Assembly: GCA_935421135.1 (NCBI GenBank)
Contig: OW285188.1
Location: 21,863,233 to 21,927,232 of the forward strand
Length of the DNA stretch: 64,000 nucleotides
From: Bugulina stolonifera
Taxonomy: Eukaryota; Bryozoa; Gymnolaemata; Cheilostomatida; Bugulidae
Direction: 5' to 3'
In this document: piece after piece, positions 15,401 through 64,000 of the stretch
Position numbering within the stretch: the stretch's first letter is position 1
How the letters are laid out: every line of letters starts with the position of its first letter
Notes under the pieces: model-generated
Databases searched by the model: none
Told to the model about the DNA's origin: nothing
Seen by the model: only the letters and a program-made list of their open reading frames with translations
Made by a program: the position numbers and the translations under genes

Positions 15401-18400
15401 CTCTGTTATGTAGATCTATTATACATGGGAAGAAATATGTTTCAGTGTTTGTATAATTGACCTTGGTGCGACATCAGGTGGTAGTAACAAACAATCTTGT
15501 ATCACTGTAGCATACTTCATCAGCGTTGATGCTTTTCAATATTGAATAATTCTTATGAAAGATCCATTTTGTTTTGTTATGAAGCATCTATGAAATGATT
15601 ATGATTTATTGATGATTTGTAGTGAAAATAGATAGAACAAAAGGACCAATCAATACTACTAGGATTTCAAAGATATCTGAGAGTGTGTAAAATCATTGGA
15701 ACAGGTCTTTCGCTGACTAATATAGACAGTTGACAATACATTAGTCTATGGTTACCAATAGATATATGGAGTAGTCAGCTTATATTTCAGCAGAAAATGA
15801 AAATAATTCAGTCATAAATTAGTTCACTCTGGGTTTTCTGCTACATAGTCTACACTTCTGTATCCAAGCTGCCGAGACTAGTAGAATTATGCAATATCAC
15901 TAGGAATTGAATGAAATGTGTGCACCAGTGGTTGCCAAAACACAAACATACATATCATTAGAATAAAAGTGGGTTTACCTATTTTTATGGCCTAAATCTA
16001 CACAGTAGATAAACTCCTGTCTATAAGATTGTTCATCGTGATATTTTTTTGGATGTTGTCAGAAATATCTCCTTTCTCATAACATCCCGTAACAAGTCCG
16101 GCATTCATATGCTGACTGGATACAATGTCGTTAGTTATGGTGCTGCATAGTCAGTAAAGTATGTTTAACATTAATTTCAGATATATTTCAAAAGCTGTCA
16201 AGTTTCTCAGCTGAACACAGAGAACTGATAGTAGAGAATGGTGCTCATACATCTTTAGTAATGTTGCTGTCGACAGGTAACATCACACTACTACATTGTG
16301 CTTTGTACGCTCTTCAGGATCTAGCTCAAAGGTAAGTGGAGGTGGCAATATTTGACTCTGATAACTATGGTAATGTAGTACAATACTATATAATGTACAT
16401 GTAGTACATACTATATAATGTACATGTAGTACATACTATATAATGTACATGTAGTACATACTATATAATATACATGTAGTACATACTATATAATGTACAT
16501 GTAGTACATACTATATAATGTACATGTAGTACAATACTAATTATATAATGTACATGTAGTACATACTATATAATGTACATGTAGTACAATACTAATTATA
16601 TAATGTACATGGATGTTTTACACTTTTATCCTTGTACAGCCTCTTCGACAATCAGGTCGTGGTACCTACTACCCACGAAGTTTTAGCTCATAGTTTATAG
16701 TGACTGGGAAACTCATGCTATAAATGTTGTAGCTGTGTATTCAGATGGACTATGCTCTTCAATGGCCAATTGCTGTCATTTCAGGGGTCTTTTACTTCTA
16801 TTTTAGTGAGAAGGCCAGAAATCTTATTGGCCAACTTAACTGTATTGAAAGGATTCTGTATATGTTTCAAGATTATGATTTGGATTCGAAAAGGTATGTA
16901 TGTAAACAGTCCCAACTTGCACTTGACTGTATACTGCGTACATATGACTATTATAATACATTGTGATTTATTGAATTGTTCATTATGTGTATTTAGTTTT
17001 GAACCTTGTAAAGATTATGTTAGCAAAGGCTATTTGTTTGAATCCTTAAGTTTTTGTGAATATTTAACCAACCAACTGGAGTCGTGTATGCAATGTAACA
17101 CTGTATGTTATTCATTTACAGTTGAACGTTTTTATCAATTGCTAATATCATTATACAATGGTGCCAAATGAGAAGTCAATTGATAACTTTCAATTGCTAT
17201 TGTTTGTTAGTGTTGTGAAATATTTAAATACAGGTATATTTTACACTCAAGCACAAGCTTAAAGCCACCCATGATTTCTCAAGTGGTCCTAGTTTTCTTA
17301 TACACCAATATCATGCATGAAATATTATAATATTTTGATTTCTGTATATACGAATCAGGTGTTCTGGAACATGATTGTTTATTTTTATCATGGTCAGTGA
17401 GTTTCTATACGATATTTCTGTAGACATGCTGCCAAATTGCTCAAGAGTTTATGCGGAGACAGTCAGGTCAGGAGAGAGTTAGTGAGGGTGTATGATGGTA
17501 TCCCCCATCTGCTAACGTAAGAATCACTGTCTATATTCAAACTAAAGCGACATGATCTGTTAATTTAAGATTTTTCAATATTCAATTCTACGTTATGATC
17601 ACTATGTGTTTGATTGACTCGTATTTATATACGTTGCATATTGCCTTTGCAACTTTACCATGTAGGTCTAAAATAACCCGAACTTACAACAAAGATTTTA
17701 ATAAACTATATGAATTTACTGCTGATATTCTTACAAACTGAGCAGCTGTTAAAGACAAATCTTAGATATACATGTTACATTATTATTACGTTTGATGTAA
17801 ATGGTAATGTCTTACGATTGATTATCAGGTAGTTTGTGTAATGTTCTTTCATGGTTTATAATCAGCGTAGTGTTAGTCATGCTGAGATATAGAATAATGG
17901 CTCCCTCGACTCCCATTGCTCTAACCAAAGCATTGTCTGCTCTGGTTTGGTGTTTTATAATAGTTTAGCCACATGGGTTTAGTTCAACTGTTACAGAATA
18001 TAGTATATGACAGTATATTTCTCTTTAGGTACAAACGGAGCAGACGCGTATTATTGTTATCTCGTAGCTGTAGTTAAATTACAAATTTTATTCAGTCAAA
18101 ACGGTTTTGATGACCGTAGAAAATATGCCTTGTAACTTTGTTCACATTATGATTTTATACGTTGGTAGCCATTTTTATATACAGCATCCCTACAGTCTGC
18201 TGTAGTGGTCTTTATTTTACCTGTATACTGTACTTGTTTACTATACATACAATGTACATCTTCATGTAGGTTACTGGATGGTTGTGATCTCAAACTGCTG
18301 AGGAATATTATATGGTGCATTGTACAACTAGCAGAAGACGTGGACACTTCCAATGTATTGAGAAGTTCAGGAGTTATCCCACTACTCATTAACTTGCTGA

Positions 18401-30284: not shown

Positions 30285-33200
30285 TTACGATGAGTCTATT
30301 GAATTTGCTGAAGATAAATTTATAAGTACAATCCCAACATCCATTACATTGGTCCCTGTTAAACCGGTATTGTATAAGAACTTTCCCTGTTCCAGTTGAC
30401 TAAAGTATGTGTAAGAATCGTTATTTTGTAAGAAGGGAAGTGGGTCCAGGTGTGACATATCAGAGCAGTGTGGTGCAACAATAGCACCGGCAGCATCAGT
30501 TGGTCCATCCTGGCCGTCTGTGCCAATTGAAGCAAATGTGACAGCATGGCTAGGCATATTTAGAGAGTTCATTGCTATCAGGGCACTCAGGCACATCTCC
30601 TGATTCCTACCTCCTGGAACAAAGTGACCGAGTTGAGCTGGGTGATAGTAAGGAAAACAGTTTGCAGTATGAGATCATACATTAGCATGACTTCCCTAAC
30701 TGTCGAACAACACGCTACGCTAAAATGTTTTAGCTTTGCCAACACATTAATTGCCCTAATTTTAAAGTATTTTAAGAGTATGAAGAGAGGGGTAATGCCC
30801 GACGTCCAACTAAATAGTACAATTGAGGTGTTGAGTGAGTCTATGTTTATCTAATGCATATAACACATATAATTACTTATTAGTCAACATTTTGTAAACA
30901 TAAGCAGAAGTATTCGAGTATTACATGTACAGCATTGTATCATGTCTGTATAGGTATATACATGTACAGCATTGTATCATGTCTGTATAGGTATATACAT
31001 GTACAGTATTGTATTATGTCTGTATAGGTATATATATGTACAGTATTGTATTATGTCTGTATAGGTATATATATGTACAGTATTGTATTATGTCTGTATA
31101 GGTATATACATGTACAGTATTGTATCATGTCTGTATAGGTATATACATGTACAGTATTGTATCATGTCTGTATAGGTATATACATGTACAGTATTGTATC
31201 ATGTCTGTATAGGTATATACATGTACAGTATTGTATCATGTCTGTATAGGTATATACATGTACAGTATTGCATTATGTCTGTATAGGTATATACATGTAC
31301 AGTATTGTATCATGTCTGTATAGGTACATACATGTACAATGTACATACATGTATATACTGTATAATGTGTATGTGTATAATAAAGAATAGCTAAACTAGA
31401 CAGATAAATCATGGATTTATAAGAACCTACTGATGCTATGATGTAGACATTCCCTGAGCACTTTAGTTAGGGGGTTTATACTGACGGCTTGAGAACTGTA
31501 TTTCAGTATATTACGCACCTTATATACATGCCCTGCTATGAATAAATCAATGAGTATAACATGGTATTTCCTAGAGTGTTTTGAGAGTTATATCTGAGCT
31601 GCGCTATTCAACTATTACCTTGACCTGTTCCTTTGACCTCTACCGTAGTCTCCCCTCCAAACAACAGACATAGAGGTAGCTTTGATTCAGTAACTGCCCG
31701 CCTTATTTTACTATTCAAATCATCCTCAAGAGACAAGACATCATTGAACAAACCTTCGGTATAGTTAGATGAGCTAGACCAGTTCAATATACGGTGTGTT
31801 AATTCTGCCATTTCCTTTCCAATCTATCCCCAATAATAAACACCAACACAAAACATAATTTACAACATGGGAACATTCGTCTAAAATGAAAATTGTAAAC
31901 AAAATAATTCAGCGATATCTCGGAACAGCCCTATGTGTGACAAGGAGAGTAAACAACATTGACCATTACCTGAGTAGCATTTCCACATAGCTGCGTGGTG
32001 AGTAGCACTGGGACAACAGACATGTTGTGGCAGCGATCAACAGCTGCCTGCAGCGCAATGCTATTGGAGCCAATTACCACGTTATGGACATTTGTGGGAG
32101 AGGTCAATGAACCGCTGCTGTCAAGATACAATTTCTTTCTGCCATGCTGTAGGACATCTCTAACAGACAGCAGCACCTATGGGAAACAAATACGAGTGGG
32201 AAATAACAAAGAAACAATAGATGGGGTTTAATATCAGTCCCCTTTCCACATTATATACCAGGTAACACCAACTTTGCTTAGATTTACGTATTAAAATAAT
32301 TATACACGTGAGAATGTATGTATAGCCATAGGCTTCGACATATCCTATCCCTGAGAAGTGTCTTTCATCTGTGTATTTGTTCACTATTACAAGTCACACT
32401 AATTTAAATCCTATTCCAAACACACCTAACAACCCATTACACAACATAAAAGTAGACAAATTGCTATGTTGACCCACTGTTATGTGGACCCATTGCTATG
32501 TAGGCCTATTGCTATCTAGACCCATTGCTATGTGGACTAATATACGTATAGCACATAGACACACCTCATTCTCATTCAGGTATTTCCTTAGAATATTCAG
32601 AGCATCTTCTGCAGTGCTAGTATCTGGTAGAGTAGGTCCACTGGCAATGATATCTAAAGGGTCCCCTACTACATCAGAAAGTACCAAATTCACCACCTGT
32701 ATGGAGACATCATGTGTCTGTTAGTTTATACAATGTACATGCACACACCACAATCCTTACACCTAATATTCAGCCTACTAACACATGTATATCACACAGT
32801 GTATATAACCATTCACATTTACAGTATACAGGCCTATCTGCATTTGTACATGATACGGACAAACATATACACACTGTATCTATACATGAAACGTAGATCA
32901 TGCATGTGTCCAGTAGTCGCATACATGTATAATGGGTGTTGTGATCAGTATACCTGTCATAAGTGTAGTATTGTATACTAACAGACATACACGTGATAAG
33001 GTGAATATGTATGGTCATATATGTGCAGTGCAGACCACCGTTAGTAGGCCCCCAGTCTCAAAATCCTAGACACAGCTTTCCAGGGTTCAGAAAGCAGAAA
33101 TACACTAACCTCATTTTTAATGAAACTGTTCAACATTTAGAAATCAGCATGACTGCTAACTTCTGACATTAATTATAATACCACAGGGCATCCAGTCATC

Positions 33201-35690: not shown

Positions 35691-38064
35691 CGTAAAACCC
35701 TTTTATCACACCTATCTATTACAAAAGTTAAAATGTACATGTTAGCTGAATTGACAATTCTGCAACTGCAAGTGTTGAATAGCGGGCCAGTTGAAGAAAT
35801 CCACTAAAATCAATATGTGCAAAATATTCAGATGAATATAAAATTGTAAAGATTGTTCACTGCGCTAATATAACTATAAGAAGGAGAGAGCAACTCATGC
35901 GAAGTAGTAGCTGAGCAACAATTATTATATAAAATACACACTTCTCAAAAATATATAAATATTAAAATCAATATAAAATAAATATGTTTATTTTTATTTC
36001 ATAGAAGATCGACCAAGAAAACAGATAACAAAATAGCCTAATTCAGTAATATTGTAAGAAAATTAATATAATAATAACAACATATTGCCATTATATAATC
36101 AGTAATAAATTAAATAAGTTAAAATAAAAAATTTAAATCGAAATATCTACTATGTAGTAATTGAATAATAATAGAATTATTATTATATCAATGTTAAATG
36201 TATATATAAATTTAATTAATTTCAAGCTAAGACGAAGTGAGAACACCCAGCATGAAAACAAGCCTGAACATTCATTAAGCAATAAAAGTTAAATATAAAT
36301 TTGCTTTAAATTAGTTAACCTATTACTATTTCTATAAAAGTATAAGAGAAATAATTTCTAATTCATTCATGCCGCAATCTTTAGTGAGGTATAGATAGCA
36401 ATGCAATTCTACTACAGTGTATCTTTATATTACAAATGCATACTACTTCGTCAAAAACACAACTATGCAATATTTAACTGGCTTTGTTACAAAATGTAGC
36501 AGAAAACCAATTACCTTTTTTCCAAAAATAATACAGCACACCCCTTTTGATTTTATTAGCAAAACAATAAATTAGAAAAACCATCCTAGCCTTAATTCCT
36601 TTCAAACTATAGCTAGTGCTCTACGCAAAATGATACTTGAAAGCGTCATGACTTCTAGTCCGTTATTAGATTTTGTAGTGGACCACAGGCTAGAATTGTG
36701 AAGCGTTTAAAATGTTTTTAGTGGAACCAGCAAGAGGTACCTGGTTGGTCATTGCTAGAAATACTAGAATGTTATTGGATTATTTGGTTTTTATCTTTAG
36801 CTTTCCAAATAAATTTGCTAACATACACAAACAGGTGGTTGGTTGAAGAGATGAAGTTCGCTGATACGTTGTTTTCTATTGGAATTTGATTATAAATATA
36901 TTTTAGTAGGATGGTACGTTGAAAAAGTTCTATGTAGCGAGCAGTTGCGAATTTAATAGAGTGATTCAAAGTGGCCACCATTGATGCCTCATTATAGAAT
37001 GAGATAGGATAAAGTAAAAATGGAATAAAAAAATTAAAATTAAAATAGATATCAAATCATCTAATCATATGGAGTGAACAATTATTGTTCACAATGATAT
37101 TAATTAGTAAAATGTATAGCATTATAATTATAATAAAAATGTAAAAATAATTTTGGTAGGAAAATTGAGCTTTAGAAAGGACTAGTGTAGGCCTCCAGTG
37201 TCAATCTATTAGTAGTATGAGCCAAGGAGAATAAAATGGCAATTTTTAAAAAGAAAAAAAATTACACTATATAACTATAACTATCACCATGTGACTATCA
37301 CCATGTGACTATCACCATATGACTATCACTATATGACTATCACTATATGGCTATCACCATATAGGCCTATGGCTACCACTGTATAACTATCACCATATGA
37401 CTATCACCATATGACTAATAATATAATTGCACTAAATGTGTGGTTCTGGTTTACTTTAATTTAATTCGAATCAAAGCCCATGAGTTTAGGATAATGCCTG
37501 TAAGTGTTACCTTTTGTAATAGTGAAATCACGAATATTTATTTCTCTCATTTGTATAAACTGTTTAGTTATCGTTGTTCAAAGGCTAAGATCATAAAATG
37601 ACATTTGTACTTAATACTAGGTGCATTCCACATTCCAATTCGAATCGGGCAAAAATAGGAAGCAGGTTTCAGATCATGGAGCAGTTTTCTAGTTGTTCCA
37701 AAAGCTAACCAATCAACTGATGAGACTCGACTTGTTGTTCACTTTTGTTCAAATTGGCATGTGTGATTAATCCTGGTTATAGATTGAATAATGAGATGGT
37801 GTTTTCAAACAAACAAAAAATAAATCTTTTGCACCCCAACGTCAAACAAAAGTTGCAGCAAATTTTAACATGAAATTTAAATCTCCCAAAAATGGTCCAA
37901 TGTAAGCCTGCTTTTAGTATTTTCTCAGTTTTACATATAGGCCTAGCTGATAATTATGTGTTTAGTCAAACTTACATAAATATGTGCTGTGTTGAGTTTA
38001 TAATAATTATCGTGTTTATGTTTGCAATTATAGATGCAGTGAAACTTCAGACTACTTTTATCGC
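35691..38064. other. Bidirectional spacer between GLYCTK and CELSR
   Basis: This 2.4-kb AT-rich stretch separates the two divergent start codons and should hold both promoters. No TATA box stands out. An acceptor-like ttgcaattatag at 38021-38032 suggests the CELSR start exon is preceded by a non-coding exon. Open frames are short and unsupported. Confidence 0.45.
37276..37420. repeat. 14-bp tandem repeat
   Basis: Roughly ten imperfect copies of ctatcaccatatga lie upstream of CELSR. No function is evident. Confidence 0.85.
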
Positions 38065-41000: not shown

Positions 41001-44000
41001 TTGGGATTACCAATAAAATTAACATTAAAATACAATAATGCCATTACCATGTAAGGATTTAATTACACTTCTGTGTAACCCCTATTATCACCACTATGTG
41101 TGAAGTTATTACCTACTATGATTTGGATTTTTAGGTACAATGTATTTGAGGGTCATGTTGCTGGCAACCCTATAGCCACTGTGGTAGCCACTGACCCAGA
41201 TGAGGCAGACAATAAGCTCCTGAAGTATTCCATTATACCTCAGGTACGGAGGACACAGCTCCCTATTGCTATAGATGAGAACACTGGAGTCATCACCAAT
41301 AATGCCACACTGGACAGAGAAAGAGAGGCCAGGTTAGAATTGTCTTTCTGTCTTCCTGGCTAATTTTCTAATTGAGATTTACTCTCGGGCCTAGAATGTA
41401 GCACAGCAGTAAATTAACTATTAACTGTAGCCTAAATGCAATACTATCCTTCCGTGATGTTGTGGGCATTGCGTAAAGAATTACTCCGGTTCCGGTATGA
41501 AGTTACTTCTCTGGCAGTACTTGTAATGTACACTAACACCTAAAACAGATACTGATGAGACAAACCTAAATTTTATTTTGTTTTACTGATGTTTGTTGCG
41601 GAAAATATCACCTTACAGTATTGTCAACTTGATTAGTTTAGATTCAGAATATAAATATTGATTTTAAACTATTTGTTGCGTCTAATGTCTACTTGGACTC
41701 GTAGAATCACTGTACTGTTAGAGCAATGAGTTGTAATTGCTAGTCCACATATTGTATAGAAATGTATAGACCTATTAATAATACCTGCATTACTGTATAA
41801 TATTCAAGGCATATTATGCACTTAAATATTCATTTATATTAGCTATTATTGTCTGATTGAGTAGAAGCTGGTTTGAAGTGACTCTGTCTATTTAGTAATT
41901 TCTTCATTAATTTCCTACTTGATAAAGACTAGAACTTGTGTGTGTCCAGTTGTACAGTTATGTGCTATACATGCGCTATTATATTCCATTGTAGGTACTA
42001 CAGTTATGCTATACATGCGCTATTATATTCCATTGTAGGTACTACAGTTGTGTTAAACATTTGCTATTATATTTCATTATAGATATGAGTTTGTAGTGCT
42101 TGTCCAAGACCATGGAAGTCCACCGAAGTCCGCTACTTCGAATATCACTATAAACATACTGGACAGGTAGAGTCATTACTAATATCTGTACATGTACATG
42201 TTCCTACTGTTAGTACATGTACATGTTCATATATAACCTACTGCAGTACATATACATGCGTGTATATATAATATTTTGTATGGGTAAGATCTTTAGTACT
42301 TTAACTCTGGCCTTGGAGTTCCACCCATAGAATTATGTTACCACTCTACTAAGACAGCCTGGCTACTAGTACATCTGGTCCTACTGAACTACTAAATCAT
42401 TAATCACATACATTATTCTTATTCCTGTATATCCTAAATGAAATAGATGCCAAATTTTAGTTTAATTATAGTTCTGCTCTTCATTGTCTAAAATTAATTA
42501 TCTTTTAATTTAGACTTGACCATTGAGTTGGGTAGCAAGAGCTAACCTTCTCTATTAGTACACTAGGACTATCCTTCTATGTAGAATTGCTGGCTGGTTT
42601 TGACTGTTGTTAGGAAAATTGTAAATTTTATGCAAAATTGGTCCCACAAATGTTGTGTCAAAACGAGTGGTGATGACTGAAAACTGTACTAGATTTGAGA
42701 GTTATACTGTCTTACAGTATGTGCTAATTTATCAGTGTTGTCTGAACAGTACGTTTTATACTGAAAGGTGCTGTGTTAGACTGACTGTATAGGGGAGGTG
42801 ATATTATTTGCTCATAAAGATGGAAATTGGGCCTGAATAGGCTATAGAATAGACCACCTAATATCCACACTTTGTTTTGTTTACATAAAAGTTTTACTAA
42901 CTGTATTGCTGAACATTTTATTCTAATTGTTGTGTTCATTTCATACTTGTTCAATGAATTGAGATAATACGCTGCTTTGTTGTACAAATAGTAATGTTAG
43001 TAAGTGTATAACATGGGAACTAGCAGTCTTGTGTGGTAGCGATAGTCCAATGTCAGCTGGTGACTCGGAGACTGCATGAACTACTGCCAATATATTATTG
43101 AAAGATAACTTCATTCATGTGAGCCAGTCGGTTCAGAAAGGGTAGAATATTGTTATTATAGCCTGCTATCTGTAATGGAAGTGATGTGGTAGACTGTAGA
43201 TGGTATTTATGGCCATCCTGGCCTAATAATTATTGCAGTGGGGTGTCTAGCTTGCTATGGCTTCATGTTGAAGTATTGTCTCTCATCTTGTCAGCTCACT
43301 ATTATATTAGTATGTACTAATGTACCAGTACTAGTGATGGTAACAGCTCCTTCTGTCTTACAGGAATGATAATGAACCTGAGTTTACAAAGAACATCTAC
43401 AATGCGTTTATATCAGAAGATGCTGACGTGTTAGATGAAGTTATCACTGTGACAGCTGACGACCCTGATGAAAACGATGAACTCACGTACACTATAGTCA
43501 GTGGAGGTAAATTTTACTGTAATGATGGATGGTCAAATTAGAAAGTCTAATTTCTAATTTTTATGTAATTTATGTGAAACAATTATAATTATATCTTATA
43601 TGATGTTCTCAAAATATTATTCATAATAATACCATTTTAGAGCTATGATGGTAGTTGATAACTCTGTGAATTACACAAGCCATTTTGTATTGTCATTATT
43701 ACAATTTTGTTATAGGAAGCTTGATTGGGAATCTTTTGTTTGTTTTGTCAATGCACACGTTGTGTATATCACAGTATAATCAATGGATATATCATAGCCC
43801 ACGCCAGTTGATTGACAGGCCTGTAATTACTCACCGGCCGAAATAGCTCAGTTGGGAGAGCGTTAGACTGAAGATCTAAAGGTCCCTGGTTCGATCCCGG
43901 GTTTCGGCAACACCGATCCTGGTGGCTGGTACATTTTTTTTTATTTTTTAGATGGCAGCAACGACTTCATGATAATAAAGGAACAAAAGTTTGGTATTAT

Positions 44001-56000: not shown

Positions 56001-59000
56001 TCAACAGGATGTGAATGTTGGAAGTAATCCCAATTCCCGAGCATTGGACAGCCCAGCGAGGCATAATGTGTTTAATGGATGCAGTAAGCCCACCAAGTGT
56101 GAGGCACCATGTAGAACTGGTGCAGCCAGTGTGTGTCATGTAGGCTGGGAGAACTCCACCTGTCTCTGTAGTGAAGGTATGTTTGTATTTCTCATGTTAC
56201 TTCTATTACGTTTTATTGTATATGAACTATATGGAGTAATGCACGTGTTTATGCACTGCTGAATCTCAGACAAAGTGCTCAATGTTTACAACAGAGCTAA
56301 TTAATATTTGGTAGAATCTCACTGTTTTATCTCTTTTATTACTATTAGTTTCATGCTATATACTAGAATGAAATATATAGCAATCATCAGATAAAAGAGA
56401 CATAATACTACTAATGGACAAGGACATGGTTAAGGTGTTTTATATGTAGCGATTGTTTGGCTTACTGTTATATACATTGTACATGTAGCTAAAGAGATTA
56501 GGACTAATCTTGGTGTATTAAGTAATTCCATAGTTGAGCATGTGTTTTCTAGAGTGTCTGCACGTGGATATGAGCTCGTTTCGTTTATTCAGTGTGGCCA
56601 TGAGTGGTTTGCGTAAAATAACATATTTCTCAGTCACGCATAGGTGGCAATTTTTGGAAGAGTTGTTATAGGCCTGTGCATGCGTTATTATTTTCCACCT
56701 GATGTTGAAGTTTAATTGCTGTTCCTTCAGTTCCCAGATGTATTTACTTAGCTCTGTGCTAGCCCAATGCCAACATACCAGACCAAACTTATATAGGACT
56801 GACAGAAAACACTTTCAAGAAGCGCATGTACAACCACAAATCTTCATTTAATAATGAGAACCAAAGGGCTAGCACAGAGCTAAGTAAATACATCTGGGAA
56901 CTGAAGGAACAGCAATTAAACTTCAACATCAGGTGGAAAATAATAACGCATGCACAGACCTATAACAACTTTTCCAAAAATTGCCACCTATGCGTGACTG
57001 AGAAATATTTTATTTTACGCAAACCACGCATGGCCACACTAAATAAACGAAACGAGCTCATATCCACGTGCAGACACTCTAGAAAACACATGCTCAACTA
57101 TGGAATTACTTAATACACCAAGATTAGTCCTAATCTCTTTAGCTACATGTACAATGTATATAACAGTAAGCCAAACAATCGCTACATATAAAACACCTTA
57201 ACCATGTCCTTGTCCATTAGTAGTATTATGTCTCTTTTATCTGATGATTGCTATATATTTCATTCCAGTATATAGCATGAAACTAATAGTAATAAAAGAG
57301 ATAAAACAGTGAGATTCTACCAAATATTGTATATGAACTACGTAGATATCGTACCATCTTTTTGGTTTACTTATTGCTGTTCATGTTAACCATTATTCAA
57401 ATATACCGTAAAAAGTTGTATAATAGCGCGCTTTCTAATATTTTACTCTGGTGTAGATGTGTGTAGGTTTAGTTTTATTCTTGGTTTCATTACAGGTTTA
57501 TATGGATCTACTTGTACCAGTGTATGTAGCCCTAGTTACAATCCATGCGAACATGGTGGTCAGTGTAGAGTGGACAGAGAGGTGGCACTTGGATACAGGT
57601 GCCTGTGCTCTGAGGGTTACCAAGGGACATACTGTGAAGATCAACTGCAGGTAGTAAATGTATAAAACGTGTATTATATTCAAGTATTATATATATACAT
57701 GACATTGCTTATACTAAACATTGTATGTGTAAGCAGTCGACAATAAAAGCAGATCTTGGTACATGCATGACGTAATATTCATTTCTCTCTCTATGATTGT
57801 ATTTTAGTCCGAGTGCCCTGCATCATGGTGGGGCACCTCTGTATGTGGTCCTTGTAACTGTGATACAGAGTTAAACTTTAACAGGCAATGTGACAAGTTG
57901 ACAGGTGCCTGTCTGTGCAAGGTAAGCTATAGTAGAAATAATACATTATATAAATTATATATTATACCGTTCTTACCCTGGCCTATATCAATTAGATAAA
58001 CTGATTTATTTACAGAATGTGTCGTAATTTTTGTTCGTTCAAAAGCATACTGTATTCTTTCACATGTAGAATGGCTACTACAGACCGAAAAATAGTGATG
58101 GCTGTGTACCGTGTAACTGCTATTACAATGCTGGCAAGGGCGGAGCTATACGAACATCATGTGATGCAGCAACTGGCCAATGTGAATGCAGGACAGGGGT
58201 CAGTGGTAGGATATGTGATGCATGTGAAAACTTATTTGCCGAGGCAACTGAGGAAGGGTGTATAGGTAATTATTAATTTTGTTATATCCTGGGTTATAGG
58301 AAAATGTATCACGAAAATGTAACTGCTAGTGTGACTGTATATGTGTATACATGTACAATGTACATCTTTGTATATAATGTATTTATCTATACATTCCCTG
58401 CAGTGCTGTACAACTCATGTCCCAAGTCATACACTGCTGGTGTCTGGTGGACAAGGACTCAGTTTGGAGTGCAGCGAATAGAATCATGCCCTCCTGGAAG
58501 TGTTGGTAATGCCACCAGAGTCTGCAAGGATAGCGAAGATGGCTGGCAAGAACCTATACTCAGTGCCTGTACCTCAAATCAATTCCTAGCTCTCCATGAC
58601 AGCGTGAGTATAAAACTGACCTGTGGCTACTTGCAGGTCACTTGTGTTTCGAAGTTCCTCATATCTGTTGTATATACAATGTATTTTGGTGATTTTATTT
58701 GTTGTTGGACTAACAAGCATACATGTGAATGGGTGAATATTTCAATGAACAGTTCAGTCTTTTCAATACAATGTTTGCTCGATTTCTTTTTATTGACATG
58801 ACTTACATAGATTTGTTTTACAGTTGTTAGAACTGGAATTGAGAAAAGATGGCAATGGATCTGAACCAGTTGTAGCTGTGGGCTCTGAGCGCTATTCATT
58901 TGTAGCTACTCGCATTATCAGTAAACTGAGGAATGCCACCGAACAGGTGAGTGTTAGCGGGCGGGTGAGGGGTACAGGTGAGTGTTAGCGGGCGAGTGAG

Positions 59001-62000
59001 GAGTACAGGTGTCAGCTGGTGAGTGAGGGTGGTAGATGTCTTAAGTGGAGAGCTTTTATCATGCAATATTTCTGGAGATGAGCAGCAACTGCAAACATAC
59101 ATATAGGTCATTTGTGATTTTATGGGGACTATTGACGGTAGCAGGTAGCAGCAGACGGCTGTTGACAGGTGATTGCTACTGGCAGTGTTGAGAAAGGTCC
59201 TATTAATCAGCAATTATTTTCCTCATAGTTATTTATGTTTTAGTAGTTACTCCCAGAATATTCCATGTACATGTAATAGCGGTGTTTGTTATAGGTAAAG
59301 AATTTATACACCAATGATTTACTCATTACTGTGAAGGTTTTGAGACAAATTCTATTAAGGGAAAAAGTTGGGAAGTCTCTCTACCTGTCCCATACGCGAG
59401 ATCGTTACTTTCTGGAAAACCTGGTCTATATAACTAGCACTGCTCTCAACACTGACTTCACCGATCAGTGGGTCTCGATTACCAAGACATACAAATCGTC
59501 TGCTCTTGTCGATCTCATTCAAGACTATGATGACTATATCAGTAATCTGGTTGACAATATGGCTACCATATTTGTCACGGCAGGCATGGAACCTTTCCAG
59601 ATAATAACCGACAATATCGGTGAGTCATACATACAGCCTTTTGTGCTGAAACTTTCTAATAGAATATAATTATTTAGAAACTTTATGCAAACTTCTATAA
59701 TATTGTATATCTGCATATGGTGTACATAAATATATAAGCTATGCATACATTGCACTCGCTGTGTACGTGTATTATCGTTATACAATTTCTAGTCATGAAT
59801 ATGGATACTCTGAGAGTCAACGGGGCGACAATCCCTAAATATAACAACATCAAGAAGAACGATTCCGTATTTGATGATGCAACGTCAGTGATATTGCCTT
59901 CCAAACTGTTTACAGAAACAAGTGATGGCTGTAAGTGAATATTATGTTCCATTAGTATTTCAAACCACATATTTATTATTAGTTGGTATTAAAACCTTAC
60001 ACACATATACTTTAAGATACTACATAGTACAATGTGTATGTAAATAGTTGCTCCGGATATCAATTAGAACAACTAGAGGTACATACAAGGTATTTGTAAT
60101 AAATCAATTCTCTCCTATCATATTGTAATGTAGGTTATTTTGTTGTTGTTCTGTTGCAGTGTTGGCTGGTAAGACAGTATGTGGTTCTCTGCTATACAAG
60201 ACAGCAGCAGAGCTTCTCGTCTCCACATCTAGTTCAGAGAATAACCGTTACGCGTCAGATATAGAGTTTAATAACAGAGTTCAAAGGTCAGTACGTGGTT
60301 TATACTCTTCTCATGCTACAAATTGTATTGAGTTGTTAGTGGAATGTGCAGTATTTAGCCTATCCATGTAAGGTAGATTATAATAATTTATAGCCCTGCA
60401 AATGCAACTGCATGTACTGTAGATGCTAAAACTGACAGCTCTATGTGTTCGGTTGTAGGCTTTCAAACTAATATACATGTAGGTGATTTCCTGGTATCTT
60501 TGATCAGTCAGGTCAAAATGGGATTTTCCTAGATGTTCAAATTTAGCAATTCAACCTCAAAGATGGGTGGCGTGAGAATTAGACTTTGGCTAGTATGACG
60601 TACAGTGCATGTTTTATGTGTGGCAGTGTGACCACCAGTGACCACCTACTAGTAAAGGTTATATGTGGCAGTGTGACCACCTGCTACTAAAAGTTATGTG
60701 TGACAGTAGTGAGCTAGACTCATATCCAACAAATAATAATCAGATATCTGCTAATTCAGCATCATCTGAATATGTGGAAATCTAGTGGTAGGAATCCATT
60801 GCACTCCGTAGGCTACTGTAGCATGTGGTATTAATATACAGTTATATACGTATAGCTATCATAGTAAACACTATGTATATTCCAGGGGGCCTACCTATGG
60901 AGGTATTGTATTGAATTCAGCTGTGTTTAGTCTCGCTGTACAGCAAGGAGAGAGGAGACCAGTACTGCTGGTGGACCCCATAGAGATTACCTTCCTACTC
61001 AGGATATCTGACCAGACTACTAACCCCCAATGTGTATACCTAGATACCCAAGGGTAAGTTAGCTAGTGCATTAAACCTGTTATTATATCCTACATATGCG
61101 ATGAAAAAGTATGACAATTTACATGTTCCATATACTTGTTATTTCTTCTAATGGATTTACATGGAGCCTAACCTATATGTAGTGTGGGGATACTTGGTTG
61201 GATAAATCTATTGTAGATGTATATACCATAATGCGTGTTTATCAGATGGTTATGTGATGATTATTTACTGTATACACTATACAGGCATTGGACAGCCGAG
61301 TCCTGTCTTACTAAGGAGGTGCTCGATGATAGAGTTATCTGCTCCTGTCTACATCTCAGTACATATGCACTAATAACAGACTTCAACCCAAACACTGTGA
61401 GTATAATATCGTTGGTATCAGTGTGGTAGTAGCCTAGGTTCTCAGTACTTTAAAGTAGTAGGTAGGGGCCTCTGCTGCTGATCAATATACTGGCGATTGT
61501 ATGACAGTTTTAGCTCAAGTTATTATAGATTTGATGCTGTTGTGGTATTCGAACTATACTATACTTTGCAGTAACCAATCATATCAGTGTACACATGTAC
61601 ATAGCCTATACTATACTCTATTACAGGGTGCACTAACCAATCATATCAGTGTACACATGTACATAGCCTATACTATACTCTGTTACAGGGTGCACTAACC
61701 AATCATATCAGTGTACACATGTACATAGCCTATACTATACTCTATTACAGGGTGCACTAACCAATCATATCAGTGTACACATGTACATAGCAGTGGCTGT
61801 TGCCCTCCTGTGTCTAATGATTACTCTACTAGTGTTTGTGTGCCTGAAGGACCTCAAGTCTAACTATATATACAACCAGATAAACTTGCATATCTGCTTC
61901 TCTATCTCTCTCATCATCTATGTGGCTGGTTCGAACAGTATGGATAACCAGGTACAGTATCTATATACAATATGATTTGTCGGGGTCAAACTGGGGAAGG

Positions 62001-63241: not shown

Positions 63242-63394
63242 GTAAGGCATATACATATATACAAGTACATGTGCAACTAACTATATGATAGAGAGAAGAC
63301 AACTTTCATGTCACTCTATTTATTGTGGTAAAACGAGTTGATTGCTACATTTATTATTAGAGTCAAGTGGATTAATTTATTAAAATGTATATAT

Positions 63395-63840
63395 ACATGT
63401 ACATGTATACTTAGACCATAGATATAATATACATGTATACTTAGACCATTGATATAATATACATGTATTATACTTAGACCATAGATATAATATACATGTA
63501 TTATACTTAGACCATAGATATAATATACATGTATACTTAGACCATTGATATAATATACATGTATTATACTTAGACCATAGATATAATATACATGTATTAT
63601 ACTTAGACCATAGATATAATATACATGTATACTTAGACCATTGATATAATATACATGTATTATACTTAGACCATAGATATAATATACATGTATTATACTT
63701 AGACCATAGATATAATATACATGTATACTTAGACCATAGATATAATATACATGTATACTTAGATCATAGATATAATATACATGTATACTTAGACCATAGA
63801 TATAATATACATGTATACTGAGACCATAGATATATATAGA
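63395..63840. repeat. Minisatellite in CELSR intron 39
   Basis: About 13 copies of a 32- to 37-bp unit (atatacatgtatacttagac then catagatata), differing by an optional tatt insertion. It shares only the ATACATGTAT palindrome with the other arrays in the window. Confidence 0.95.
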
Positions 63841-64000
63841 TGTGTATATTATATCTATGATTTGGAAACGCTTGTAATATGTTCTAGATAAATCTACTTA
63901 TGGCAAGGTAATCTATATACATGTATATATGTACAGCATGTACATTTGTACTATGTTAGTGTGTATTATACAGTAGATATATAATATACTTATTGATACA

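Follow-up and report, generated by a model that had tools for sequence, protein, structure and literature searches.

Priming on both target strands is known from the twin priming of LINE-1, in which it leads to inversion of the 5' segment within one copy. Closer to the insertion described here are the Penelope-like elements (PLEs). In Adineta vaga these form head-to-head pLTRs with a tail that is optional on one of them, and inversions of bdelloid Penelope copies have been ascribed to self-priming on an antisense template (Arkhipova and others, PMC3846280). In vitro the anole PLE protein, when purified, cleaves both DNA strands and extends them; reverse transcription begins inside the RNA at two adjacent sites, the interval between which matches the genomic tail, and no difference in start site was seen between the top and bottom strands (Frangieh and others, PMC11167929). 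The integration of PLEs, with their frequent head-to-head pairs and odd optional tail, is unsettled in the literature examined.

The insertion lies in a 64-kb stretch of Bugulina stolonifera DNA, the whole of which is referred to below as the window. It is a Penelope-like retrotransposon of known kind, inverted copies and optional tails having been described before. Its location in a gene and its doubled ribozyme matter little; the pattern that deserves attention is the presence of one tail per pair of arms.

The inverted insertion and its unequal arms

The insertion consists of two PLE arms joined head to head within an intron. Its features are as follows (window positions):

56177..57495, + strand: host intron of a CELSR/flamingo-type gene, 1319 nt, GT...AG, assigned from the domains of the flanking exons
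56214..56229, + strand: left target-site duplication (TSD), 16 bp, TATTGTATATGAACTA
56230..56302, - strand: 73-nt tail, a 3' extension of the left arm that is absent from the right arm
56303..56765, - strand: left (tailed) PLE arm, with the end of the GIY-YIG ORF, the 3' UTR and a hammerhead, reading leftward
56763..56765, no strand: head-to-head junction with 3-nt microhomology, the overlap of the two arm alignments
56766..57110, + strand: putative endonuclease frame (C-terminal, GIY-YIG) of the right copy, 115 aa; its initial 100 nt are missing in the left arm
56866..57328, + strand: right (tail-less) PLE arm as a repeat; the element sequence ends at about 57324
57325..57340, + strand: right TSD, a 16-bp direct repeat of TATTGTATATGAACTA

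The initial annotation had placed inverted 463-nt arms at 56303-56765 and 56866-57328 and assigned them to a PLE in an intron of a CELSR-type gene. The arms stand where they were placed: 457 of 463 positions match (6 differences, 99% complementary), a 100-nt spacer lies between them, and the pair is the sole inverted repeat of at least 45 nt in the window (repeat search, seed 14). The outer boundaries, given as 56303..57328, needed revision, because the 16-bp direct repeat at 56214-56229 and 57325-57340 sets the insertion at 56230-57324, with asymmetric ends. The intronic location is supported by the Pfam domains of the flanking exons and the GT...AG intron, and the identity of the element is supported by the tail, the hammerhead, the TSD and the 5' truncation.

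The arms are unequal both outside and at the centre. The left arm runs 73 nt beyond the end of the right arm, and the right arm reaches 100 nt further toward the element 5' end, in frame. Since the tail is confined to the left arm and the 100 nt of coding sequence to the right, neither arm simply duplicates its partner. At five of the 6 differences one arm stands apart from almost every other copy (one of the five variants recurs in a single other copy), and the sixth difference segregates in the family. An assembly artefact is unlikely, as the arms differ at 6 positions, the tail is found on one arm only and the 100-nt spacer on the other only, and each sister insertion read as sequence shows a junction and flanks of its own.

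The 115-aa frame covers solely the portion from YIG onward, and the reverse transcriptase region is missing from this truncated copy. It has 96 database relatives at 36-67% identity, one of which is named as a GIY-YIG domain protein. Pfam found no domain on the 115-aa fragment, nor on 218-aa and 464-aa pieces from sister copies. The 464-aa frame, from the sister locus L026, extends upstream. Of its 3450 relatives the top 120 show identities of up to 59%, and none of these 120 bears the name ‘reverse transcriptase’. Prokaryote species genomes scanned with the PLE protein gave no relative. An optional 3' tail and a hammerhead motif near the 3' end/pLTR are present in both PLE families of this genome (the second is described below); TSDs and frequent 5' truncation are found as well. 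By analogy with the anole element, the tail would span two start sites for reverse transcription (PMC11167929).

The hammerhead motifs and the host gene

The core CTGATGA...GAAA...GTA is found in both arms, on opposite strands, and as the arms are inverted there is one hammerhead per strand:

56328..56402, - strand: left-arm hammerhead, predicted cleavage between 56340/56339, coordinates mirrored from the right arm
57229..57303, + strand: right-arm hammerhead, in sense orientation relative to the host gene; core at 57241-57247; cleavage predicted at 57291/57292

CTGATGA is followed by helix II, GAAA, helix III closed by AAU, the GUA cleavage site and helix I. In the model drawn for the right arm, helices I, II and III have 12, 11 and 3 bp, and helix II carries a U-U at its base. 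Such a U-U base has a precedent in axolotl hammerhead motifs (PMC7229834). With its conserved core and three predicted helices the motif corresponds to a minimal type-I hammerhead, and the fold that had been claimed for each strand holds in this model. The minimum-energy fold predicted for the free-standing segment has -20.3 kcal/mol, against -19.4 kcal/mol for the hammerhead, with part of the core closed differently. Rfam gave no hammerhead match over the window or over 56200-57400. Matches to the plant miRNAs MIR2606, mir-5014 and MIR2655 in Rfam were rejected, being below gathering scores and tracking the long hairpin.

The core is intact in 48 of 55 aligned arms of family 1, to which the window element belongs (one short arm excluded). 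In family 2 a clean core with different helix sequences is present in both arms at 7 of 9 loci; L049 has an altered GAAA and L051 showed no core. Another hammerhead-like core, CTGATGAGGTGTTAAACACCGAAA, unlike the PLE motif, adjoins a family-2 insertion (L050:3040) and possibly belongs to a retrozyme-like repeat.

The exon segments flanking the insertion, all on the + strand, encode cadherin, EGF, laminin G, hormone-receptor (HRM), GAIN, GPS and secretin-type 7TM (7tm_2) domains. For each of these, one or more of the singly scored stretches exceed the Pfam cut-off; laminin-EGF and CELSR2-ninth-cadherin matches fell below the cut-off, and 4 of the 17 host-gene stretches tested gave no Pfam match. 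The combination of cadherin, EGF, laminin G, HRM, GAIN, GPS and 7TM domains is the architecture of CELSR/flamingo. For the cadherin exon the closest database matches are 51-54% identical. A tRNA-Phe (GAA) gene at 43837-43909 (+ strand) apparently also lies within an intron of this gene. The window further contains minisatellites at 30848-31431, 2124-2474 and 63310-63864 (units of 37, 13 and about 30 bp) and at 16358-16637, 37247-37439 and 61567-61791 (units of 25, 14 and 62 bp).

The initial annotation had stressed the placement of the ribozyme pair in a planar-polarity gene, with no described case known to it. Use of the pair there as a regulatory device, acting by intron self-cleavage or as a long double-stranded RNA, would be in keeping with the intact hammerhead cores, one of which is sense to the gene. 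Against this, equal structures occur at dozens of further sites in the genome, and the sense ribozyme is predicted to be sequestered: the fold of lowest energy for the intron has 458 of the 463 left-arm bases paired to the right arm, in a duplex that takes in 78 of 79 nt of the sense hammerhead. Cleavage during transcription, ahead of duplex formation, might still take place. The 6 arm differences would appear in the duplex of the sense transcript as five mismatches and one G-U, and no differing site has been restored by a second change. Such uncompensated differences look like neutral decay and argue for neutrality. We consider a regulatory device extremely unlikely; neither a special relation to the gene nor a function of the ribozyme pair in it is supported, and the intronic pair is probably neutral, decaying sequence.

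Outer ends of the sister insertions

The organism's own genome (235 Mb, 27 contigs) was searched, and 40 of 263 candidates were scored, with at least 113 matches. The family-1 set comprises 36 fetched loci and the window, 37 in all, with arm and tail mapped separately. Read as sequence, these are 19 head-to-head pairs, 17 single arms and 1 complex locus (L043). Each of the 19 pairs combines a single tailed arm with a single tail-less one. Single arms are tailed in 8 cases and tail-less in 9, a nearly even split of the two end types outside pairs. A string of 14-19 bp is common to both ends in 15 of the 19 pairs, a raw count that includes some strings of simple AT repeat. In the remaining pairs the ends lie in tandem repeats (L009, L020), share 9 bp only (L013) or have a displaced repeat (L033). 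No repeat of at least 8 bp was found at both ends in 7 of the 17 single arms (L015, L017, L019, L021, L022, L027, L042), so a clear duplication does not accompany every copy.

The same pattern was followed genome-wide with short motifs. The tail-start motif (up to 3 mismatches) has 76 occurrences (36+40), a complete list, and the arm-end motif (up to 2 mismatches) has 213, at least 160 arm-end entries being used, some via a shorter variant motif. Combined, these give 178 ends; a tail is recognised at 76 of them and not at the other 102, the tail-less list being partial. Neighbouring ends within 6 kb are head to head in 39 of 39 cases, and all 39 have one tailed and one tail-less end; a smaller motif set gave 36/36. 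The 39 include the 19 pairs read as sequence, the other 20 being defined by motifs alone. By chance about 49% of pairs would be of this kind, giving a probability of about 8e-13 for all 39 if pairs are taken as independent. Pairs with two tails would escape this count only if a tail had more than 3 mismatches in the motif, and pairs with no tail could sit among unlisted arm ends. Unpaired family-1 ends number 100, of which 63 are tail-less (16 in one tandem array) and 37 tailed, and some may have an unlisted partner.

Two further features of these ends may be recorded. At G000:C4:2827977-3025041 there are 16 PLE arm ends, all on the + strand and for the most part spaced by about 12.36 kb; they apparently belong to a large tandem array whose unit contains a PLE end. 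Many pairs with one end of each type are tiny, their arm-end motifs only about 35-200 nt apart (e.g. G000:C5:8954007-8954107, C6:1651815-1651897 and C9:2222447-2222530). Little has been inserted in these beyond the two 3' ends, and they might be taken in error for small palindromic DNA elements.

A second family, with an endonuclease about 60% identical to that of family 1, was found by endonuclease search of the same genome. Nine of 11 loci were fetched, picked for back-to-back endonuclease matches (- then +) with tails ignored, and all nine have a tail on exactly one outer arm, of up to 87 nt (62-88 columns matched). Both motif lists for this family are complete, with 71 arm ends and 99 tails. 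The outer ends are one tailed and one tail-less in 29 of 31 loci, consisting of 27 motif pairs, the compound locus L053, the outer ends of which are tailed and tail-less and which was counted as support, and L051, which is too divergent for the motif and was added from sequence reading. Three of the 27 motif pairs have a tail without a matching arm-end motif, and all three (L049, L056, L057) agree when read as sequence. The other two loci, L054 and L055, have tails on both sides by motif and were counted as compound, not as support. To judge from its sequence, L054 looks like a pair with one end of each type, then its duplication, then a tiny second pair of the same type; L055 has three arms, and its outermost ends are tailed and tail-less. 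A further 54 family-2-type tails are near no listed arm end and hence fall outside the partner count; many are of a diverged subfamily. This subfamily, marked by the tail motif GCTCTAGGACAATACCACATCC, occurs often, with no listed arm end nearby (e.g. G000:C2:3262834, C7:5527473). Over both families, 68 head-to-head insertions (39 + 29) in one genome have one tailed and one tail-less outer end.

This constancy might be attributed to a mobile palindrome, that is, to a master locus with tailed and tail-less ends that transposed as a unit and was internally deleted. Such a locus would explain constant outer ends with variable centres. However, the central arm ends vary among the sequenced pairs, several distinct variant combinations are found across arm pairs, and single arms of both end types are common. 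A master palindrome is decidedly unlikely.

The partner arms are closely alike. Mean divergence is 0.59% within a locus and 3.4% from one locus to another; arms re-paired at random never came as close in 5000 trials. The partner is the nearest copy, ties included, for 28 of 38 arms; for the other 10, one to nineteen copies are strictly closer. On the simplest reading, partner arms come from a common source transcript or copy. At the junction, arms overlap by 2-9 nt (mean 3.8) in 14 pairs, compared with a simulated mean of 0.66 (0 of 14000 samples, each of 14 junctions), the observed overlaps being defined by BLAST and the control by exact matches, measures that are close but not identical. Two pairs have a filler, of 14 and 47 nt, in place of the overlap. 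This count excludes L030, L033 and L044 (3 of 19 pairs). These three loci and L043 show internal rearrangements, with short segments repeated and middles inverted, which suggests template jumps during insertion. L030 and L033, although internally rearranged, still have one tailed and one tail-less outer end.

Near-identical arms in head-to-head palindromes are what self-priming would give, a strand snapping back and being copied so that one arm is the copy of the other. One such pair, L026:3181-6708, is a spacer-free palindrome (99.9%) with arms of 1727 nt, the halves of which can be read from the sequence as joined via a self-complementary dinucleotide. Fold-back cannot simply yield the nine pairs, the window included, in which each arm holds sequence missing from its partner, nor should a copied arm end at the second start site every time. 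We regard fold-back as a very unlikely source of the pairs.

The reach of the arms toward the element 5' end was compared in 17 pairs (L030 and L033, 2 of 19, excluded). The tail-less arm is longer in 9, the tailed arm in 6, and the two are equal in 2. This comparison bears on the sequential use of one RNA, in which a first enzyme would block the proximal site and a second would start at the distal site. That scheme accounts both for the one end of each type and for how alike partner arms are, and in 2 of the 17 pairs the two stopping points are no more than 5 nt apart. Nevertheless, a trailing enzyme should shorten the tailed arm, and the reach is unbiased (9 vs 6, p = 0.61). Sequential use is unlikely.

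Proposed priming from two start sites, and known systems

Asymmetric ends, a target duplication, a junction overlap, close likeness of partner arms and one end of each type in two families are all observed directly. PLE insertion by target-primed reverse transcription (TPRT) on both strands, with a separate start site for each strand and joining by microhomology, is the probable origin of these pairs. The element endonuclease would make a staggered cut leaving 3' overhangs of roughly 14-17 nt, to judge from the duplications, and reverse transcription of sense element RNA would then be primed at both 3' ends. A start at the proximal site, immediately beyond the hammerhead, would produce the tail-less arm and a start at the distal site, about 73 nt on, the tailed arm, so that the 73-nt tail of the left arm in the window would be a product of the distal site. 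The two cDNAs would halt at different points, and their 3' ends would anneal by a few nt and be filled in to give the head-to-head inverted pair. The enzymology of such both-strand priming is proposed by inference from the integrated copies.

A stronger version supposes an obligatorily asymmetric complex, in which the strands are assigned to different RNA start sites, one per protomer, so that one end of each type always results; we give this about an even chance. The complex may perhaps be a dimer with one protomer per start site. That each strand has its own site is not established, as the anole protein in vitro showed no difference in start site between the top and bottom strands (PMC11167929). 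The one tail per pair in two families leads to a sharp prediction, two-strand priming from different start sites, which is open to checks in other genomes that carry PLEs and in the in vitro system already in use. A strict rule of one tailed and one tail-less end was not found stated in the available portions of the PLE literature, including PMC3846280, PMC11167929, PMC8969392 and PMC8232201, nor in those of PMC12910113, PMC7761336 and PMC7229834.

A close genomic counterpart is Penelope of Adineta vaga, which shares the head-to-head inverted pLTRs, the TSD and the AT-rich targets. Its tail is 31 bp, whereas those described here are 73 or up to 87 nt, and its TSD is 8-10 bp, against end repeats that are mostly 14-17 bp here. 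Its tail is optional, in contrast to one tail per pair in nearly all loci scored here (PMC3846280). For the inversions, the present genome data fit two-site priming on both strands and argue against self-priming.

The hammerhead resembles the minimal type-I motifs of PLE pLTRs in having a type-I core in the PLE 3' region, and from its sequence it appears, like them, to have no classical loop-loop contacts. PLE pLTR hammerheads are usually without helix III, whereas a helix III of 3 bp accompanies a helix I of 12 bp here (Cervera and de la Pena 2014, as described in PMC7761336).

LINE-1 twin priming likewise uses both strands; in the pairs described here, however, the arms share sequence and the element 3' ends face outward. 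The anole Poseidon PLE (PAc) shares the two internal start sites, with the hammerhead upstream of both. In vitro PAc shows no strand difference, whereas the integrated pairs of B. stolonifera have one site on each side (PMC11167929).
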